DNA of 64,000 nt. It comes from Bacteroidetes bacterium GWF2_43_63. GTDB lineage: Bacteria > Bacteroidota > Bacteroidia > Bacteroidales > DTU049. The position numbers and the translations under genes are program-made. Shown here piece by piece: positions 9,941-56,010 of this stretch (its first letter is position 1; every line of letters starts with the position of its first letter). The DNA lies in NCBI GenBank assembly GCA_001769275.1, contig MEOQ01000022.1:124001-188000 (forward strand). The letters are read 5' to 3'. Under the pieces are notes generated by a model. It did not search any database. It was given only the letters and a program-made list of their open reading frames with translations, and was not told the DNA's origin.

Positions 9941-9979
9941 CTAAGCCCTCGAAGGGTTTCAAACCCTTCGAGGGCTTAG
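9941..9979. repeat. Palindromic repeat C1 (CCCTCGAAGGGTTT family), possible terminator
   Basis: A perfect inverted repeat: 19-bp arms CTAAGCCCTCGAAGGGTTT and its complement flank a single C. It starts one base after the DUF5686 stop codon. Related copies lie at 37762-37794 and 54105-54136. It could terminate transcription in both directions, though it lacks a U-tract. Confidence 0.85.
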
Positions 9980-10874: not shown

Positions 10875-10885
10875 TCATATGAGAA

Positions 10886-11075
10886 TGTCTCAAAATAGCG
10901 GTTTGTTACGACATTCCACCGTTGCGGCCGGTGATATGGAATTCTTCCATGCTTTTGAGCCGGAACATGGAACCGTCGTAACAACAGCAAAAACAACGGT
11001 TCCATGTCCTTCAGCTCCTTCGTCGCATCGGACGGTGGAATGTTGTCTTTGCGCTGAATTTTGAATTTTGAGACA
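10886..11075 (+). repeat. Type-A structured repeat, copy 1
   Basis: A 190-bp element bounded by perfect 11-bp inverted ends, TGTCTCAAAAT (10886-10896) and ATTTTGAGACA (11065-11075). Inside, ACATTCCACCGT (10911-10922) pairs with ACGGTGGAATGT (11032-11043), and ACATGGAACCGT (10965-10976) pairs with ACGGTTCCATGT (10996-11007), giving nested stems. An alternative stem joins GTTACGAC (10905-10912) to GTCGTAAC (10975-10982). Three more copies occur at 31172, 37710 and 55771. No conserved coding frame. Confidence 0.9.
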
Positions 11076-11100
11076 GCCTTATAAAGTAGGTTTTTTTTAG

Positions 11101-14234: not shown

Positions 14235-14640
14235 AGACGCAGAGAGAATTCAATCTTCCGCGAATTCTCGCTAAAATTTTTATTATCATCAGCAGGTATG
14301 ATGAAAGCTAATTCGAATCAATCTTCATCTGCCTCGCCGCGGCGAGGAATCTTGATTCAGCTGTGTCTCGCAGAGGGCGCAAAGCCGCAGAGTGAGGTCA
14401 CGAAGATCTCGCGCGGAGATCGCAAAGGCGCAGAGAGAATTCTCAATAGAATCTTGCAGAGGGCGCAGAGCCGCAGAGAATTTCTCTCTTCCGCGAATGA
14501 ACGCAAATTATCGCGAAAATCATTTTTAATTACTCTACACGCCCCTTCGATGAACGCTAATGGAATCATCCTTCACCTGCGGTGAAAACTGATTCAGTGG
14601 GTAGCATCATGCACGCAAAGACGCAGAGAATTTCTCTTTC
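14235..14640. repeat. Degenerate CGCAGAG array with two hairpin elements (D1, D2)
   Basis: The gap after the PorE-like gene contains many variants of cgcagagggcgcaaagccg-type units. Embedded are two hairpins of one family: D1 at 14315-14358 (GAATCAATC...TTGATTC) and D2 at 14563-14595 (CTTCACC tgc GGTGAA core). The array begins in the stop codon region of the gene. The same material recurs at 30371-31045. From 14641 to 14730 a CGCATGCCGCAAGCGGTTACG motif follows, repeated at 16220-16250. No gene seen. Confidence 0.75.
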
Positions 14641-22362: not shown

Positions 22363-22536
22363 ACGCATTCACCGGCTTCACTGGCGTGGATTTGTAATCC
22401 GTGACAGTGAACACCTCACTCGGATTCCAAATTCGCGCGAGGTGATTTCCGCTGTCTCCTTCGATACACCGCAAGCAGTTACCTTGCAAAGAGCTACAAG
22501 AGCGGCACTGCTAATGACACACTTGCTTAAAATTCT
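22363..22536. other. Intergenic segment with short hairpins
   Basis: No gene seen. It contains a short palindrome GGATTTGTAATCC (22388-22400), an imperfect hairpin CACCTC...GAGGTG (22412-22444), and a fragment of the CGCAAGC-GTTAC repeat (about 22471-22485). Confidence 0.5.
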
Positions 22537-22621
22537 GAAAATCAACAAAAAAGGCTAATGAAGTTCCCGGTCTCCGAGCCGGGATCTCATCCTATACTAC
22601 AGACTTTTTTTGTTGATTTTC
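22537..22621 (+). repeat. Type-B inverted-end element, copy 1
   Basis: An 85-bp element. The ends GAAAATCAACAAAAAAGGCT and the complement of AGACTTTTTTTGTTGATTTTC pair almost perfectly. A small central hairpin CCCGG...CCGGG is flanked by conserved AATGAAG and CTCATCCTATACTAC. The second copy, in the opposite orientation, is at 39797-39885. From 22622 to 22860 the gap continues with CTTCGACTCCGCTCAGAGTG-type and CCTGAGCCTGTCGAAGG-type short repeats. Confidence 0.85.
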
Positions 22622-23021
22622 GCTGTCGACTCTTCGACGGAGTTTATCCTGCTGTCGACTCTTCGACTCCGCTCAGAGTGACAGTAGCAGGGCTCAGCAT
22701 AACAGCAGCAGGGCTCAGGATGACGGTCGCAGAGCTCAATGTGACAGGGTCGCAGAATCATTTTAAAACCAACACATTAGCAAATCAGCTCAAGATAAAA
22801 GACAAAACTACAAAGACAAAAGTACAAAGCGCAGTCCTGAGCCTGTCGAAGGGACAAAAGTGAATAAAACAGTATTTCAAATTGCCGAATTTTCAAATTA
22901 CCACACTTTCAACCGAACGATGAAATCGTGAGCTCATGAACACCTTTGAAATAAATATTAATGAGTGAATAAATTTTTAAATCAGCATATCCACACATTA
23001 TCACATCAGCACATCATCACA

Positions 23022-30370: not shown

Positions 30371-31050
30371 CGCGATGAGTTTTCACGCGGAGAACGCAAA
30401 GTGATTTCGCGCAGAGGTCGCAGAGACGCTGAGAAATTGCTTGCAGAGGGCGCAAAGACGCAGAGAATAGTTTCACACATAGTTGCACGGCGATTGCTCG
30501 CAGAGGTCGCAAAGGCGCAAAGATATTATGCAATAGTTTCTCGCGGAGAACGCAGAGACGCTAAGAGATGTCACGCAGAGAACGCTGAGACGCAGAGAGA
30601 TTTCACGCTAAGAACGTAAAGACGCAGAGTGATTTCACGCTGAGAACGCAGATACGCAGAGAGATATCGCGTAGAGAACGCTGAGACGCTGAGAAATTGC
30701 TCGCAGAGTGCGCAGAGACGCAGTGAAATTCTTTCGTCCGCGAATGAACGCAAATGACCGCGAATATTTTTGCTTCCCTCAGCAGGTCTTATTAACGCTA
30801 ATTAGAATCAATTTTCATCTGCGATGAACATTGATTCAGTTGTGTCACGCAGAGTTCACAAAGCCGCTGAGAAATTTTTTCATCCGCGAATTACGCTTTT
30901 TATATTCGCCTTCTGATATTGTTTTTTTGGTGCTCATGAGCTCGTGCCTTCCAGGCACTTCGGTTCGCGAAGGATTTGTTGCCGGCAACATTGCATATGG
31001 ACGCTAATTCGAATCCGCCTTCACCTGTGGTGAAGACTGATTCTGTGTGT
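30371..31050. repeat. Degenerate ~32-bp CGCAGAG array with hairpins D3 and D4
   Basis: Roughly 360 bp (30371-30735) consist of a dozen or so imperfect units such as cgcagagaacgctgagacg with spacers like agatttca, a period of about 32 bp. Beyond this lie hairpins D3 (30805-30837, GAATCAAT...ATTGATTC) and D4 (31011-31043, TTCACC tgt GGTGAA core). The units are degenerate and there are no unique spacers or cas genes, so this is not a CRISPR. No gene seen between nqrF and 31443. Confidence 0.8.
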
Positions 31051-31171
31051 CGCTCGAATGGATACAAAGATTCCTCTGGATCCGACTCTTCCATGACCTC
31101 CATTTCATTTCGGACTATGGAAGGTCGCTAGCAAACTCAGTTCGGATTAGTAGTAAAAGTGAAAATGGGGC

Positions 31172-31333
31172 TGTCTCAAAATTAAAAATTGTTACGATAT
31201 TCCATCGTCCGCCGACTGGCGGATATGGAATCGTCGTAACAGCGTCAAAAACAACGATTCCATATCCTTCCGCTCCTGCGTCGCTATCGGACGATGGAAT
31301 ATTGTTTTTGACTAAGCTTGCGCTTTGAGACCG
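31172..31333 (+). repeat. Type-A structured repeat, copy 2 (divergent)
   Basis: About 162 bp with ends TGTCTCAAAAT (31172-31182) and TTTGAGAC (31324-31331). The stems are ATATTCCATCGT (31197-31208) with ACGATGGAATAT (31291-31302), and ATATGGAATCGT (31223-31234) with ACGATTCCATAT (31254-31265). Each stem differs from the other copies at two positions, and in each case the partner strand has changed to match. The variable loop between the two left arms is reduced to a short CCGCC/GGCGG hairpin. Confidence 0.9.
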
Positions 31334-31442
31334 CCTCAGCCAATGATTTCAAAAGACTAAACCGAACTGAGTAAAAGCGAGCTGACAGCTGCAACTTGCA
31401 CCTTTATGGACTTTATAACTTTCTACTTTCCACTTCATAAAC

Positions 31443-34710: not shown

Positions 34711-37608
34711 TTAAGGTTTGTCAATGGCCTGATAAAAAAGTGAATGAATTCGTGTGCGGATATTTTGCTCAACAATTTTTTTGTTCTCCGCATCCGGATA
34801 AGTTCTGTTTGAAAGAAAAACATACACAAGACCGTTGCGGGGATCGGCCCAGATAAAGGTGCCTGTGAACCCGCTGTGGCCGAAGCTTTCGGGTGATGCT
34901 TCATCGCAGACATTTCCGTTCGGCGTTCCCGACGGTTTGTCGAAGCCAAGTCCACGCCTGTTTTTGTCGAAATAGGTCGAAGTGAATTTTTGAACGGTCG
35001 ATGCTTCAAAATATTTCGTGCCTGCGTATTGTCCATTGTCGATCAGCATTTGAAGTATCACTGCTGCATCCCAGGAGTTGCCGAAAAGTCCTGCATGTCC
35101 CGAAACACCGCCCAGCATGGCTGCTGCCTGATCATGCACGTAGCCGTGAACTTTTACATCTCTGAATGAAGTGTCTTCTTCTGTAGGCGGGATGCGACTT
35201 TTAGGAAACCTTGACAATGGATTATAGGTCATCCATGAAAGTCCGAGTGGCTGATAAAAATTCTCATCCACATATTTATTCAGAGAGTCAGCGCTTAAGT
35301 ATTCCACCATTTCTTTGAGCAGCATAAAGCCGAGATCGCTGTATTTATAGGTATGTGTAGAATTTATTTTTGAATTCAGAATAGTATTCAGCATGGAGTC
35401 TTTGTAATCGCAGCGCATGAAAAGCGAGTCACTGACACGAATTCCGAAAAGTGAATCTGGCTTTGTCCGGTAATAATTGGTGTCGGGTTTCCCGTTCTTA
35501 ATGGTGGCTGCATACAGTGGAAGCCATGCTGGGAGCCCCGATGAGTGTGTGAGCAGTCGGTCGATCCGCAGATGGCCGGCTGGTGTATTTTTCGCGGCAG
35601 GCAAGTGTTCCTGCAATTCATCATCCAGTCTGAAACGATTTTCTTCGTAGAGTTTCATCACAGAAATGGTCGTGGCTAAAACCTTTGTGACCGAGGCCAG
35701 ATCGAAGAGATCAGTTCTTTTTACCGGAGTCTTTTTGGAATAATCATGATATCCGAAAGCTTTGTTGTAAAATACTTTTCCGTTTACTGCAGCGAGTACC
35801 TGACATCCCGGAAAAACCTGATCTGCGATGGCTTTTTGGATTATTACATCGACAGAATCAAACAATGAATCCTCTAAACCCAGCTCTGATGGCTGCATTT
35901 CGACTAAGCGGCCGTCGCTGGTTTCTGTAATTATGCCGCTTCCTTCCGGATATTTTTCGGAAATTGAAACTGGCAATTGTCCTCTGAAATTCTGAATTCC
36001 GAACAGACTTCGGGCACATGCAATTTCAGCCAGCGTATCCCGCTCATAGGTCACAATCAGCGCTGCAGGCTCGAATTCATAGGTCCAGCTGTGGTATGCA
36101 TATGGATTTCCAAACAGACAAAGAATTGTTTTAGTTTGTTTGCAAATGTTTTCGACAGCCGGCATCACGAGTCCGTTGAAACCATAATTGTTTTTGTTCC
36201 AGTATGCCATGTTCTGCACAGCGGCTATTACCAGATCGTAGTTTTTTATTTTATCGGTAACCGCTTTAACGTCGCGGTTAGTCGCATATTCCGGAATAAA
36301 AAACACATCGGCACTTATATGGCGCATCAACTCTTCATGAAAAATACTTTCGGCTTCGGCACGAAATGAAACAACGGCAATTCTTTTTTTGATATCTTGG
36401 AGCGGAAAATCAATGCCCCGGCTGAAAACGAGCGTAGCATTGCTGTTGAATATCTCTCTTTTCAATTCATACCATTCCGGTTGGTTGATATCACTGGTCA
36501 CATTTCCTTCCGAAACTGGATTATAGGTTTTAAGATTTTCATTGAATTTTGTGACAAGAATTTTTCGCACGCTTTCGTCAATTCTGAAGGAGTCGATCCG
36601 TCCGCTGTCAACCGCGACAACAATGGAATCAATGGCGGTTTTAATTTGTTCGGGCATAAGCAAAACATCGTTGCCGGCAAGCAAAGCTTTCACTTCAATC
36701 TGACCGGGTTTGTTGTGTTTCATCACACCCTGCATGCCAAGCGCATCGGTGATTACCACTCCATTATAATTCATTTCATTTTTCAGAAGTCCTGTCACCA
36801 CCGATGAATTCAGCGTTGTAGGAATATTGCTGGTAGTATCGAGCGCAGGAACAAACACATGAGCCACCATAATTCCCCAGATTCCGGCATCGATCATGGC
36901 CGCAAATGGTAACAGATGTACCGAATCTATCACGTCAATATTATCAGTGACATCGGGCAGTGTTTTATGCGAATCCTGCGATGTATTGCCGTGTCCGGGA
37001 AAATGTTTGGCTACGGCCATCACGCCCTGCGACTGCATTCCACGACAAAAAACCGCAGCGTAAAACGCAACTTTATGCTGATTTTCGCCGAATGAGCGGT
37101 AGTTGATTACCGGATTCAATGGATTATTATTTACATCAACTACAGGCGCAAAATTAATGTGGATGCCGAGTCGCTTGCATTGCATTCCTACGGCCTGACC
37201 ATAGCGGTAAATGAGTGTTGTGTCGTTTGTGGCTGCCAGAGCCATAAGCCGGGGTAGTGGCATAATACTGTCGAGGCGCATGGCAGGGCCCCATTCTGCA
37301 TCCATAGCCACAAGCATTGGAATCTTTGCCTTCTTTTGCCAGCGGTTCATTAGCTTCACTTCCTTTTGTGGAGCGCCCTGAAAGAATACAATGGCTCCCG
37401 GCTGGTAAGCAGAAATTGTATCATCAATCGAAGCTGCATATTTTTCATCCTGATTGGAATAAACGGCAATCATCATCAGCTGCCCGATTTTTTCTCTCAG
37501 CGTCATGGTTCGGATCAGAGAATCCGCCCATTGTTCAGCGTTTTTATTCTGAGCCGAAGAAAAAAGACTGAAGAAAAATATGATGAAAGTGAACCCAAAA
37601 ATGCGCAT
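34711..37608 (-). CDS. GH3 beta-N-acetylhexosaminidase fused to a beta-lactamase-type serine hydrolase
   Basis: 965 residues with signal peptide (MRIFGFTFIIFFFSLFSSAQ). Residues 25-370 are a GH3 domain of the NagZ type: KHFPGHGNTSQDSHKTLP (residues 201-218) is the loop with the catalytic His/Asp pair, and GVVITDALGMQGV holds the nucleophile Asp. A GH3 C-terminal-like linker region follows. Residues about 600-960 are a class C beta-lactamase/penicillin-binding fold with SVTK (SxxK), YSD in place of the usual YxN, and GHSGFTGT. The fusion suggests combined removal of GlcNAc and peptide from cell wall material in the periplasm. It heads the operon with the TMTC-like and Dabb genes. Confidence 0.93.
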   Translation of the reverse strand: MRIFGFTFIIFFFSLFSSAQNKNAEQWADSLIRTMTLREKIGQLMMIAVYSNQDEKYAASIDDTISAYQPGAIVFFQGAPQKEVKLMNRWQKKAKIPMLVAMDAEWGPAMRLDSIMPLPRLMALAATNDTTLIYRYGQAVGMQCKRLGIHINFAPVVDVNNNPLNPVINYRSFGENQHKVAFYAAVFCRGMQSQGVMAVAKHFPGHGNTSQDSHKTLPDVTDNIDVIDSVHLLPFAAMIDAGIWGIMVAHVFVPALDTTSNIPTTLNSSVVTGLLKNEMNYNGVVITDALGMQGVMKHNKPGQIEVKALLAGNDVLLMPEQIKTAIDSIVVAVDSGRIDSFRIDESVRKILVTKFNENLKTYNPVSEGNVTSDINQPEWYELKREIFNSNATLVFSRGIDFPLQDIKKRIAVVSFRAEAESIFHEELMRHISADVFFIPEYATNRDVKAVTDKIKNYDLVIAAVQNMAYWNKNNYGFNGLVMPAVENICKQTKTILCLFGNPYAYHSWTYEFEPAALIVTYERDTLAEIACARSLFGIQNFRGQLPVSISEKYPEGSGIITETSDGRLVEMQPSELGLEDSLFDSVDVIIQKAIADQVFPGCQVLAAVNGKVFYNKAFGYHDYSKKTPVKRTDLFDLASVTKVLATTISVMKLYEENRFRLDDELQEHLPAAKNTPAGHLRIDRLLTHSSGLPAWLPLYAATIKNGKPDTNYYRTKPDSLFGIRVSDSLFMRCDYKDSMLNTILNSKINSTHTYKYSDLGFMLLKEMVEYLSADSLNKYVDENFYQPLGLSWMTYNPLSRFPKSRIPPTEEDTSFRDVKVHGYVHDQAAAMLGGVSGHAGLFGNSWDAAVILQMLIDNGQYAGTKYFEASTVQKFTSTYFDKNRRGLGFDKPSGTPNGNVCDEASPESFGHSGFTGTFIWADPRNGLVYVFLSNRTYPDAENKKIVEQNIRTRIHSLFYQAIDKP

Positions 37609-37709
37609 AGTGGAAAGGTGAAAAGTTTATATTACAAAGTAAGCATGATTTTGCGAAATTTACAAGAATAATTTTTACTTCAAAACCATATAAATTTGAA
37701 GAATGAGGA

Positions 37710-37918
37710 TGTCTCAAAATAGCTGGTTGTTACGACATTCCACCGTTCCGGCTGTTAAAAAATCCCTCGAAGGGTTCAAAACCCTTCGAGGGATGCAACT
37801 TAGCCGGAACATGGAACCGTCGAAACAACAGCAAAAACAACGGTTCCATGTCCTTCAGCTCCTGCGTCGCTTCCGGACGGTGGAATGTTGTTTTTGTTGC
37901 TGAAGACTATTTGAGACA
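37710..37918 (+). repeat. Type-A structured repeat, copy 3, with nested palindrome C2
   Basis: 209 bp with ends TGTCTCAAAAT (37710-37720) and ATTTGAGACA (37909-37918). Both long stems of copy 1 are conserved. The variable loop between CCGTTCCGGC and GCCGGAACATGG contains a complete 15-bp-arm palindrome (37762-37794, ATCCCTCGAAGGGTT and complement) of the same family as 9941-9979. One element is thus inserted inside, or has replaced, the loop of another. Confidence 0.9.
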
Positions 37919-37960
37919 GACTCATGCTTCTGCATCAAATACTTTTTCAGCTTGAGTACC

Positions 37961-39788: not shown

Positions 39789-39796
39789 TGTACAGG

Positions 39797-39885
39797 GAAA
39801 ACCAACAAAAAAAGTCTGTAGTATAGGGTGAGTTCCCCCGATGGTACCGTCGGGGGAGCTTCATTAGACTTTTTTGTTGATTTTC
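39797..39885 (-). repeat. Type-B inverted-end element, copy 2 (inverted)
   Basis: 89 bp, the reverse complement of the arrangement at 22537-22621. The ends are GAAAACCAACAAAAAAAGTC and the complement of GACTTTTTTGTTGATTTTC. The internal blocks TAATGAAG and CTCACCCTATACTAC are conserved, but the central stem is CCCCCGA/TCGGGGG rather than CCCGG/CCGGG, so pairing is kept while sequence differs. Confidence 0.85.
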
Positions 39886-39979
39886 AATTATTTGAGCACT
39901 TGAGCCATTAGCAGTTTCGCTCCCACAGCGCTTTTACAGCAAGTTGCCTGCGATGTATCTCCGTCAGCATTGTAGCGAT

Positions 39980-55691: not shown

Positions 55692-55731
55692 TTCTTCAGG
55701 CCAACCTCTCTGCGTCGCAGGATGCGACCTG
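55692..55731. repeat. 40-bp direct repeat, left copy
   Basis: The 40 bases starting TTCTTCAGGCCAACCTCTCT are identical to 55971-56010. They contain a hairpin GCGTCGCA gga TGCGAC. A divergent copy is found at 41460-41516. Here it is followed by a further hairpin TCACGAT agcc ATCGTGA. Confidence 0.9.
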
Positions 55732-55770
55732 TCACGATAGCCATCGTGAGCGTTGGGTTCACTTAGAGAC

Positions 55771-55959
55771 TGTCGAAAAACAGCTCATTGTTACGACATT
55801 CAACCGTTCCGGCTACCAATAGAGATTTAATACTGAAATTTTTGCCGGAACATGGAACCGTCGTAGCAACAGCAAAAACAACGGTTCCATGTCCTTCAGC
55901 TCCTGTGTCGCTTTCGGACGGTGGAATGTTGTTTTTTGCTGAAAATGAAATTTTAGACA
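55771..55959 (+). repeat. Type-A structured repeat, copy 4
   Basis: 189 bp; the ends have diverged to ACTGTCGAAAA and TTTTAGACAGT but still pair in GAGACTGTC / GACAGTTTC. Both long stems are present, with one mismatch in the outer one (ACATTCAACCGT). It lies between the two copies of the 40-bp direct repeat. Confidence 0.88.
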
Positions 55960-55970
55960 GTTTCTTAGTT

Positions 55971-56010
55971 TTCTTCAGGCCAACCTCTCTGCGTCGCAGG
56001 ATGCGACCTG
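55971..56010. repeat. 40-bp direct repeat, right copy
   Basis: Identical to 55692-55731, 11 bp after type-A copy 4. It is followed by AGTGCGTTGGCTCTGGCAGC and further GC-rich palindromic sequence up to about 56110. From 56110 to 56183 nothing is seen. Confidence 0.9.

Follow-up and report, generated by a model that had tools for sequence, protein, structure and literature searches.

The window analysed here, a stretch of 64,000 nucleotides from Bacteroidetes bacterium GWF2_43_63, contains a repeat with four internal arms that can pair either as one nested structure or as two adjacent hairpins. A sequence-only reading of the window had seen in this repeat the mark of selection on a folded single strand. 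This raises the questions of which fold has been selected and whether the repeat belongs to an RNA, to a conventional insertion sequence or to relatives of the REPINs, which are inverted REP doublets mobilised by a RAYT (Bertels and Rainey 2011, PMC3116915).

The sequence-only reading had called for a search of the whole genome and its relatives. There are four copies of the repeat in the window, and the search retrieved at least 59 full copies in the genome itself (G000) and at least 8 in a congeneric genome of a different species (G002), both counts being lower bounds, whereas a DNA search of 38 other relatives found the repeat in none. No match was obtained in the plasmid or viral contigs searched. 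A covariance-model search of the order (393 genomes, strict filters) gave, among the matches listed, strong matches in the own genome only and three weak ones; hairpins related to those of the element were seen in this order-wide search in G207 (locus L254) and, by eye, in G173 and G235. The extent first assigned to the repeat, 10886-11075, proved too short, since its real bounds are 15-bp terminal inverted repeats (TIRs) with the consensus GAGGCTGTCTCAAAA (Table 1). Both ends were present with at most four mismatches in 54 of 67 copies, compared with none of 65 control windows.

Table 1. Coordinates of the repeat copies in the window and of their parts
Feature	Position	Strand	Remarks
Copy 1, left TIR (GAGAATGTCTCAAAA)	10881..10895	+	
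Copy 1, hairpin H1 (arms 1 and 2)	10905..10982	+	A/CC double-bulge form on + strand
Copy 1, hairpin H2 (arms 3 and 4)	10988..11051	-	Same double-bulge form on - strand, inverted to H1
Copy 1, right TIR	11066..11080	-	
Copy 2 (T-type subfamily)	31167..31337	+	TIR 31167-31181, H1 31191-31240, H2 31246-31310, TIR 31323-31337
Copy 3 (C-type; L014)	37705..37923	+	TIR 37705-37719, H1 37729-37826, H2 37832-37896, TIR 37909-37923
Copy 4 (C-type, decayed; L020)	55766..55964	+	TIR 55766-55780, H1 55790-55867, H2 55873-55937, right TIR 55950-55964
Other RAYT-type hairpin (CCCTCGAAGGGTT...AACCCTTCGAGGG) in H1 loop of copy 3	37764..37792	.	Kind that flanks RAYT gene G000:C40:9634 (L118)

Several other repeats were noted in the window. 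The palindrome CCCTCGAAGGGTT...AACCCTTCGAGGG is also present at 9946-9974 and in the H1 loops of many copies (e.g., L010, L012, and L019), giving a REP inside a REP. Copy 4 is bordered on both sides by an identical 40-bp direct repeat (CTCTCTGCGTCG...CGACCTG; 55692-55731 and 55971-56010), which is similar to the palindrome that surrounds the RAYT gene L113. An array at 30405-30760 and 14453-14520 is built of 32-bp units in which GCAGAGACGCAGAGA is abundant and which in places precede CGCGAATGAACGCAAAT, and the segments 22463-22626 and 39792-39959, about 17 kb apart, are mutually inverted copies with 75-91% complementarity. A 965-aa open reading frame (ORF) at 34711-37608 joins a beta-N-acetylhexosaminidase-like half to a beta-lactamase/PBP4B-like half.

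The four arms of copy 1 are as they had been reported. Arm 1 (ACATTCCACCGT, 10911-10922) and arm 4 (11032-11043) are exact reverse complements, and so are arm 2 (ACATGGAACCGT, 10965-10976) and arm 3 (10996-11007); both members of the flank pair, GTTACGAC at 10905-10912 and GTCGTAAC at 10975-10982, are present. The stem given as TTCCGGC/GCCGGAA reads TTGCGGC/GCCGGAA in copy 1, with one mismatch. None of 2000 shuffles of the element contained a 12-bp inverted repeat, and the DNA fold was more stable than dinucleotide shuffles by 5.9 s.d. (copy 1) and 7.3 s.d. (copy 2). Each hairpin is composed of a stem, a 1-nt/2-nt bulge, the 5-bp centre TTCCA/TGGAA, a mirror 2-nt/1-nt bulge, and a second stem. 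The H1 consensus on the + strand is GTTACGAC-A-TTCCA-CC-GTTCCGGC ... GCCGGAAC-A-TGGAA-CC-GTCGTAAC, and that of H2 on the - strand is CAAAAACAAC-A-TTCCA-CC-GTCC ... GGAC-A-TGGAA-CC-GTTGTTTTTG. The same unpaired bases are thus found beside the centre on both strands, A opposite YC and then YC opposite A (flanks Y-A-N5-YC-G). H2 is the H1 motif on the opposite strand, and the H1-H2 spacing is 21 nt between arms in 62 of 67 copies. Since the paired centre of a stem is bordered by identical flanks on both strands, arms 1 and 2 are alike save for the reverse-complemented centre, and because H2 is H1 turned round, arms 1 and 4 and arms 2 and 3 are complementary. That arms 1 and 2 differ by a reverse-complemented 5-base centre had been correctly recognised; however, this centre is better explained by pairing within each hairpin, as part of its stem, than by arms switching partners.

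The copies of G000 fall into two subfamilies, with 34 copies reading CC, CC, GG, GG and 19 copies reading TT, TT, AA, AA. Among the C-type copies, identity amounted to 0.986 in the arms, 0.95-0.98 in the H2 stems, and 0.89-0.95 in the H1 stems, compared with 0.71-0.76 in the TIRs, 0.41-0.58 in the linkers, and 0.49 in the middle of the H1 loop. Across copies, arms were 97-99% and linkers 41-76% identical, the arm values being biased upward because copies were recruited by arm similarity (the parser tolerated three mismatches per arm, of which few were used).

The hairpins were also found next to transposase genes. One ORF in G002, which has the HUH motif NHFH and a YINRNP motif, is preceded by the match L087/L105 at a distance of about 55 bp, and the next best RAYT from the protein search, L109 of the same genome, is flanked by T-type versions of the element's hairpins. 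At L105 and L109 alike, the A/CC (H1) form is upstream of the RAYT gene and the inverse (H2) form downstream, an arrangement seen again in other Bacteroidota beside the RAYT genes of L161 and, by eye, L156. The linked proteins carry NHFH and YINxNP motifs and have an HUH and single-tyrosine core related to TnpA_REP; they match the NCBIfam model REP_Tyr_transpos (NF047646) with E values of 3e-7 to 7e-17, below the curated cut-off. The best structural match of the model of the relative L156 (mean pLDDT 85) was PDB 4er8 (E 4e-8), a complex of the E. coli RAYT with a REP hairpin. The RAYT link by hairpin is therefore present in the sister genome, but the element's own genome offered no exact match: a RAYT with exactly these hairpins was not found in G000, where the closest RAYTs in the protein search were 47-49% identical. 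Related hairpins accompany the nearest G000 RAYTs at L110 (GAC-A-TTTTA-CC-GTC...GAC-G-TGGAA-TC-GTC) and L106, and other hairpins those at L113 and L118. The cognate RAYT of the family may be missing from G000, may have been lost, may fall in an assembly gap, or may be supplied by a relative.

At L109 (G002:C144, 1390-2420) we also observed the tandem arrangement H1-RAYT-H2-H1-(first 18 codons)-H2, in which a deletion derivative adjoins the unit it came from. The deleted copy is near-identical in sequence, but between its two hairpins the gene is reduced to roughly its first 18 codons; a hairpin-gene-hairpin unit has here given rise to a short element of two hairpins.

We consider it probable that the repeat is a non-autonomous REPIN-like mobile DNA, in which two inverted RAYT-type hairpins are enclosed in a 15-bp TIR shell. 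Its copies are many and essentially all intergenic, the palindromes are short, and the spacing of the inverted doublet is constrained. The element would be mobile on this evidence; no new insertion was observed among the copies, and the one observation that bears on movement by the RAYT is the internally deleted copy at L109. Neither foot of the hairpins carries a GTAG/GTGG or CGTC tag, the left linkers reading TAGCGGTTT, TTAAAAATT and similar.

A possible, though less likely, explanation is that the repeat is a MITE belonging to a conventional (DDE) insertion sequence, in which case recognition and movement would act on the 15-bp TIRs, with the hairpins as passengers taken over from a REPIN. 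This is suggested by the TIRs at both ends of 54 of the 67 copies and by three elements of about 45 bp that consist of two TIRs without hairpins (G000:C38:96416, G000:C20:30204, and G002:C368:7229). The family relative G005 has an identical repeat end that starts with the 15 TIR bases and adjoins different flanks at contig ends, as expected of an insertion-sequence end. The conservation of the TIRs gives a divided picture, since they are conserved as much as the arms in G002 but far less than the arms in G000. A 3-bp target duplication was in weak excess (0.388 versus 0.302 ± 0.031, one of nine lengths tried), but one G002 site, which is filled by a different hairpin in other copies of the host repeat, shows no target duplication. 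Moreover, similar TIRs enclose two double-bulge hairpins at L254, a locus of a different family in the order, so that the pairing of hairpins with TIRs is not a one-off capture. The search for a DDE transposase covered the family PF13751, which is absent from G000 and G002. An IS1182-type transposase of this family was rejected as the mover; it is likewise absent from G013 and G016, and one fragment in G005 lacks matching TIRs.

Target-site duplications and an empty-site comparison in the G002 host repeat gave no clear duplication. In this other G002 repeat (CCACGAAT...ATTCGTGG; L236, L242, L243, and L246), one position holds either the TIR element or a different small palindrome, with identical junctions for both fillings and no duplication. 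No TIRs were seen in the readable flanks of the RAYT loci L105 and L109, the upstream flank of L105, which is near a contig end, being read in part. The TIR shell being absent from these RAYT loci, deletion of the gene from a REPtron does not by itself account for the G000 unit. Early on, a TIR element may have captured the doublet, or else the TIR may belong to the mobile unit, and the target duplications do not decide between the two. REP dimers in palindromes and TIRtrons/TIRYTs (PMC3733652) are a precedent for REP dimers inside longer palindromic flanks, although the TIR described here does not flank a RAYT gene and exists in three hairpin-less pairs.

Returning to the fold of the REPIN-like doublet, covariation supports the two hairpins. 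The sequence-only reading had proposed a covariation test, which in 37 aligned copies gave a result beyond chance for the two hairpins but not for the nested fold. The two-hairpin structure had 12 two-sided pairs, six per hairpin, against a shuffled mean of 3.3, and no shuffle out of 500 was as high; the nested structure had 4 against 3.6 (320 of 500 shuffles). Because related sequences were counted more than once in these shuffles, the hairpin covariation also rests on private compensations and on different outer stems. Such compensations occur in H2 of G002, where TGCCA/TGGCA (L081 and L083) and TTTCA/TGAAA (L088) restore the hairpin and break the nested pairing. All four covarying pairs of the nested structure, on the other hand, sit at the C/T positions that divide the two subfamilies.

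The compensating changes noted between copies 1 and 2 are real, as copy 2 reads ATATTCCATCGT/ATATGGAATCGT/ACGATTCCATAT/ACGATGGAATAT at 31197, 31223, 31254, and 31291, with two changes per arm, all matched. Yet the difference is a single block switch between subfamilies, involving 8 positions and shared by the 19 T-type copies, and for this reason the comparison comes close to the refutation that had been named for it, namely compensating changes confined to a single gene-converted copy. Selection on a folded single strand is nevertheless supported by the conservation of the arms relative to the divergent linkers and by covariation above every shuffle. Of the proposal of two alternative folds, it holds that both are possible and nearly equal in energy, whereas the covariation of the nested fold does not exceed the shuffles and three G002 copies break it.

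These data make it improbable that the nested, long-hairpin fold is itself selected, with the four arms co-evolving by mutual pairing. Consensus folding of the alignment prefers this fold, 97% of its cells are paired, and its 51 two-sided cells exceed the shuffles; however, all 51 are confined to four pairs and arise from one C/T switch, on which ground the nested fold was rejected as the main covarying structure. In G002, 8.8% of the nested cells are broken, compared with none in the central stem of H2 and 1.8% in that of H1. Furthermore, L053 pairs a T-type H1 with a C-type H2, which argues against co-evolution of the arms in the nested fold, and the outer stems, which are incompatible with it, covary too. 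The mean DNA energies of the two folds on the + strand were nearly equal (-33.0 versus -33.2 kcal/mol), the nested fold was favoured on the - strand (-34.7 versus -33.1 kcal/mol), and folding of single copies often preferred it. The nested fold may well form, but the data do not show selection for it, and covariation does not support it as an independently evolving structure.

With ORFs called by a simple longest-ORF rule (the few overlaps concerned short, spurious-looking ORFs), 20 of 63 copies were placed between convergent genes, 38 between tandem genes (13 in the same and 25 in the opposite orientation), and 5 between divergent genes. This agrees with REPs in other phyla, which are found preferentially between convergent or co-directional genes (PMC3733652), and speaks against a regulatory leader. 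A known RNA family was rejected, since no curated Rfam covariance model was matched. That the repeat is a cis-acting RNA (attenuator, terminator, or switch), with the nested and two-hairpin folds as alternative states controlling neighbouring genes, is highly improbable: the two folds are nearly equal in energy and part of the copies lie between tandem genes, but orientation to the genes is inconsistent, the copies are scattered among unrelated genes, many of them convergent, no Rfam family fits, and the covariation of the nested fold is one subfamily switch.

As REPIN-like DNA, the doublet would be recognised by a RAYT where the DNA is single-stranded, such as at the replication fork, through its bulged hairpins, with both bulges of each hairpin possibly serving as the recognition feature. 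The RAYT would then copy or move the hairpin pair, and recognition and copying would keep the arms conserved; the inverted doublet might also fold as a whole into a single long hairpin, an alternative proposed for REPINs. REPINs form one long hairpin or a clover, the latter being the suggested substrate (PMC3116915). The element shares with REPINs/BIMEs two inverted palindromes at fixed spacing, an extragenic location, many copies, arms more conserved than the spacer, and the two alternative folds, long hairpin or clover (PMC3116915, Figure S11). It differs in the absence of a GTAG foot, in its dyad-symmetric double-bulge stems and TIR shell, in that no cognate RAYT was found in the genome, and in the phylum. 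RAYTs bind REP in folded, single-stranded form and on one strand, and E. coli TnpA_REP requires the stem bulge in an unpaired state (PMC8266576). The E. coli system (PMC8266576; PDB 4er8) resembles the present one in its imperfect stem and transposase fold, and there unpaired stem bases decide recognition in a strand-specific manner. However, the E. coli REP has one AA/GC mismatch bulge and the GTAG tetranucleotide, whereas the element has two mirror bulges around a 5-bp centre. IS200/IS605 elements, like the RAYT loci, have a Y1/HUH transposase gene between two hairpins (H1-gene-H2), but the hairpins described here are mutually inverted instead of on one strand, and the protein is of the RAYT type.

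Also close are the Bacteroidota RAYTs of TnpA_Y1 subclass 2.6, for which PMC6006769 reports "atypical" structures without GTAG. Common to both are a Bacteroidota RAYT with non-canonical flanking hairpins lacking GTAG, copies elsewhere in the genome, and a protein with NHxH and YIxxNP-type motifs, a likeness by description that would also allow subclass 2.4. The 1/2-2/1 bulge geometry, the rule of H1 upstream and H2 downstream, and the TIR shell are not described in the text considered from that source.

The double-bulge geometry recurs beside other RAYT genes. Among 82 RAYT loci, nearly all from Bacteroidota and most of them lacking this geometry, the mirror 1/2-2/1 form with a 5-bp centre was detected in 7 upstream and 9 downstream flanks and its inverse in 5 upstream and 9 downstream flanks, compared with 0-4 flanks for each of eight other bulge geometries. 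The centres vary, for example TGACA/TGTCA (L166 and L206), TTTCA/TGAAA (L162 and L184), TACCT/AGGTA (L159), and TTCCA/TGGAA (L157, L158, and L161). The arm-and-bulge detector was designed after the element family had been seen, and the matches at L163, L197, L214, and L221 look like chance; a version with fixed flanking C and G had no match in 164 shuffled flanks. A detector for a 1/1-1/1 geometry was dropped, as many of its matches were merely perfect palindromes. The recurrence is a lead and not a survey. As a tentative idea, which we hold to be rather doubtful, many Bacteroidota RAYTs might recognise a shared shape and not a sequence, namely a hairpin whose 1/2 and 2/1 mirror bulges enclose a 5-bp centre of unconstrained sequence; the two-fold axis of the mirror bulges could seat a RAYT dimer, and the long hairpin of inverted pairs would hide both sites and act as a switch of mobility.

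Read as a REPIN-like element, the repeat is of a Bacteroidota kind that is already known but only scantily described; what it adds is a defined double-bulge hairpin, the inverse arrangement of such hairpins on either side of RAYT genes, and a TIR shell. It also teaches caution, since two inverted-doublet copies can mimic compensatory evolution between distant arms when a recognition motif has changed in all its copies. REP-like elements of Bacteroidota have so far been recorded only as "atypical structures", recognised by eye (PMC6006769). A defined geometry beside RAYTs of unrelated sequence provides a means to search for such elements and predicts which bases the transposase reads, and it makes the idea of a two-fold REPIN switch testable.
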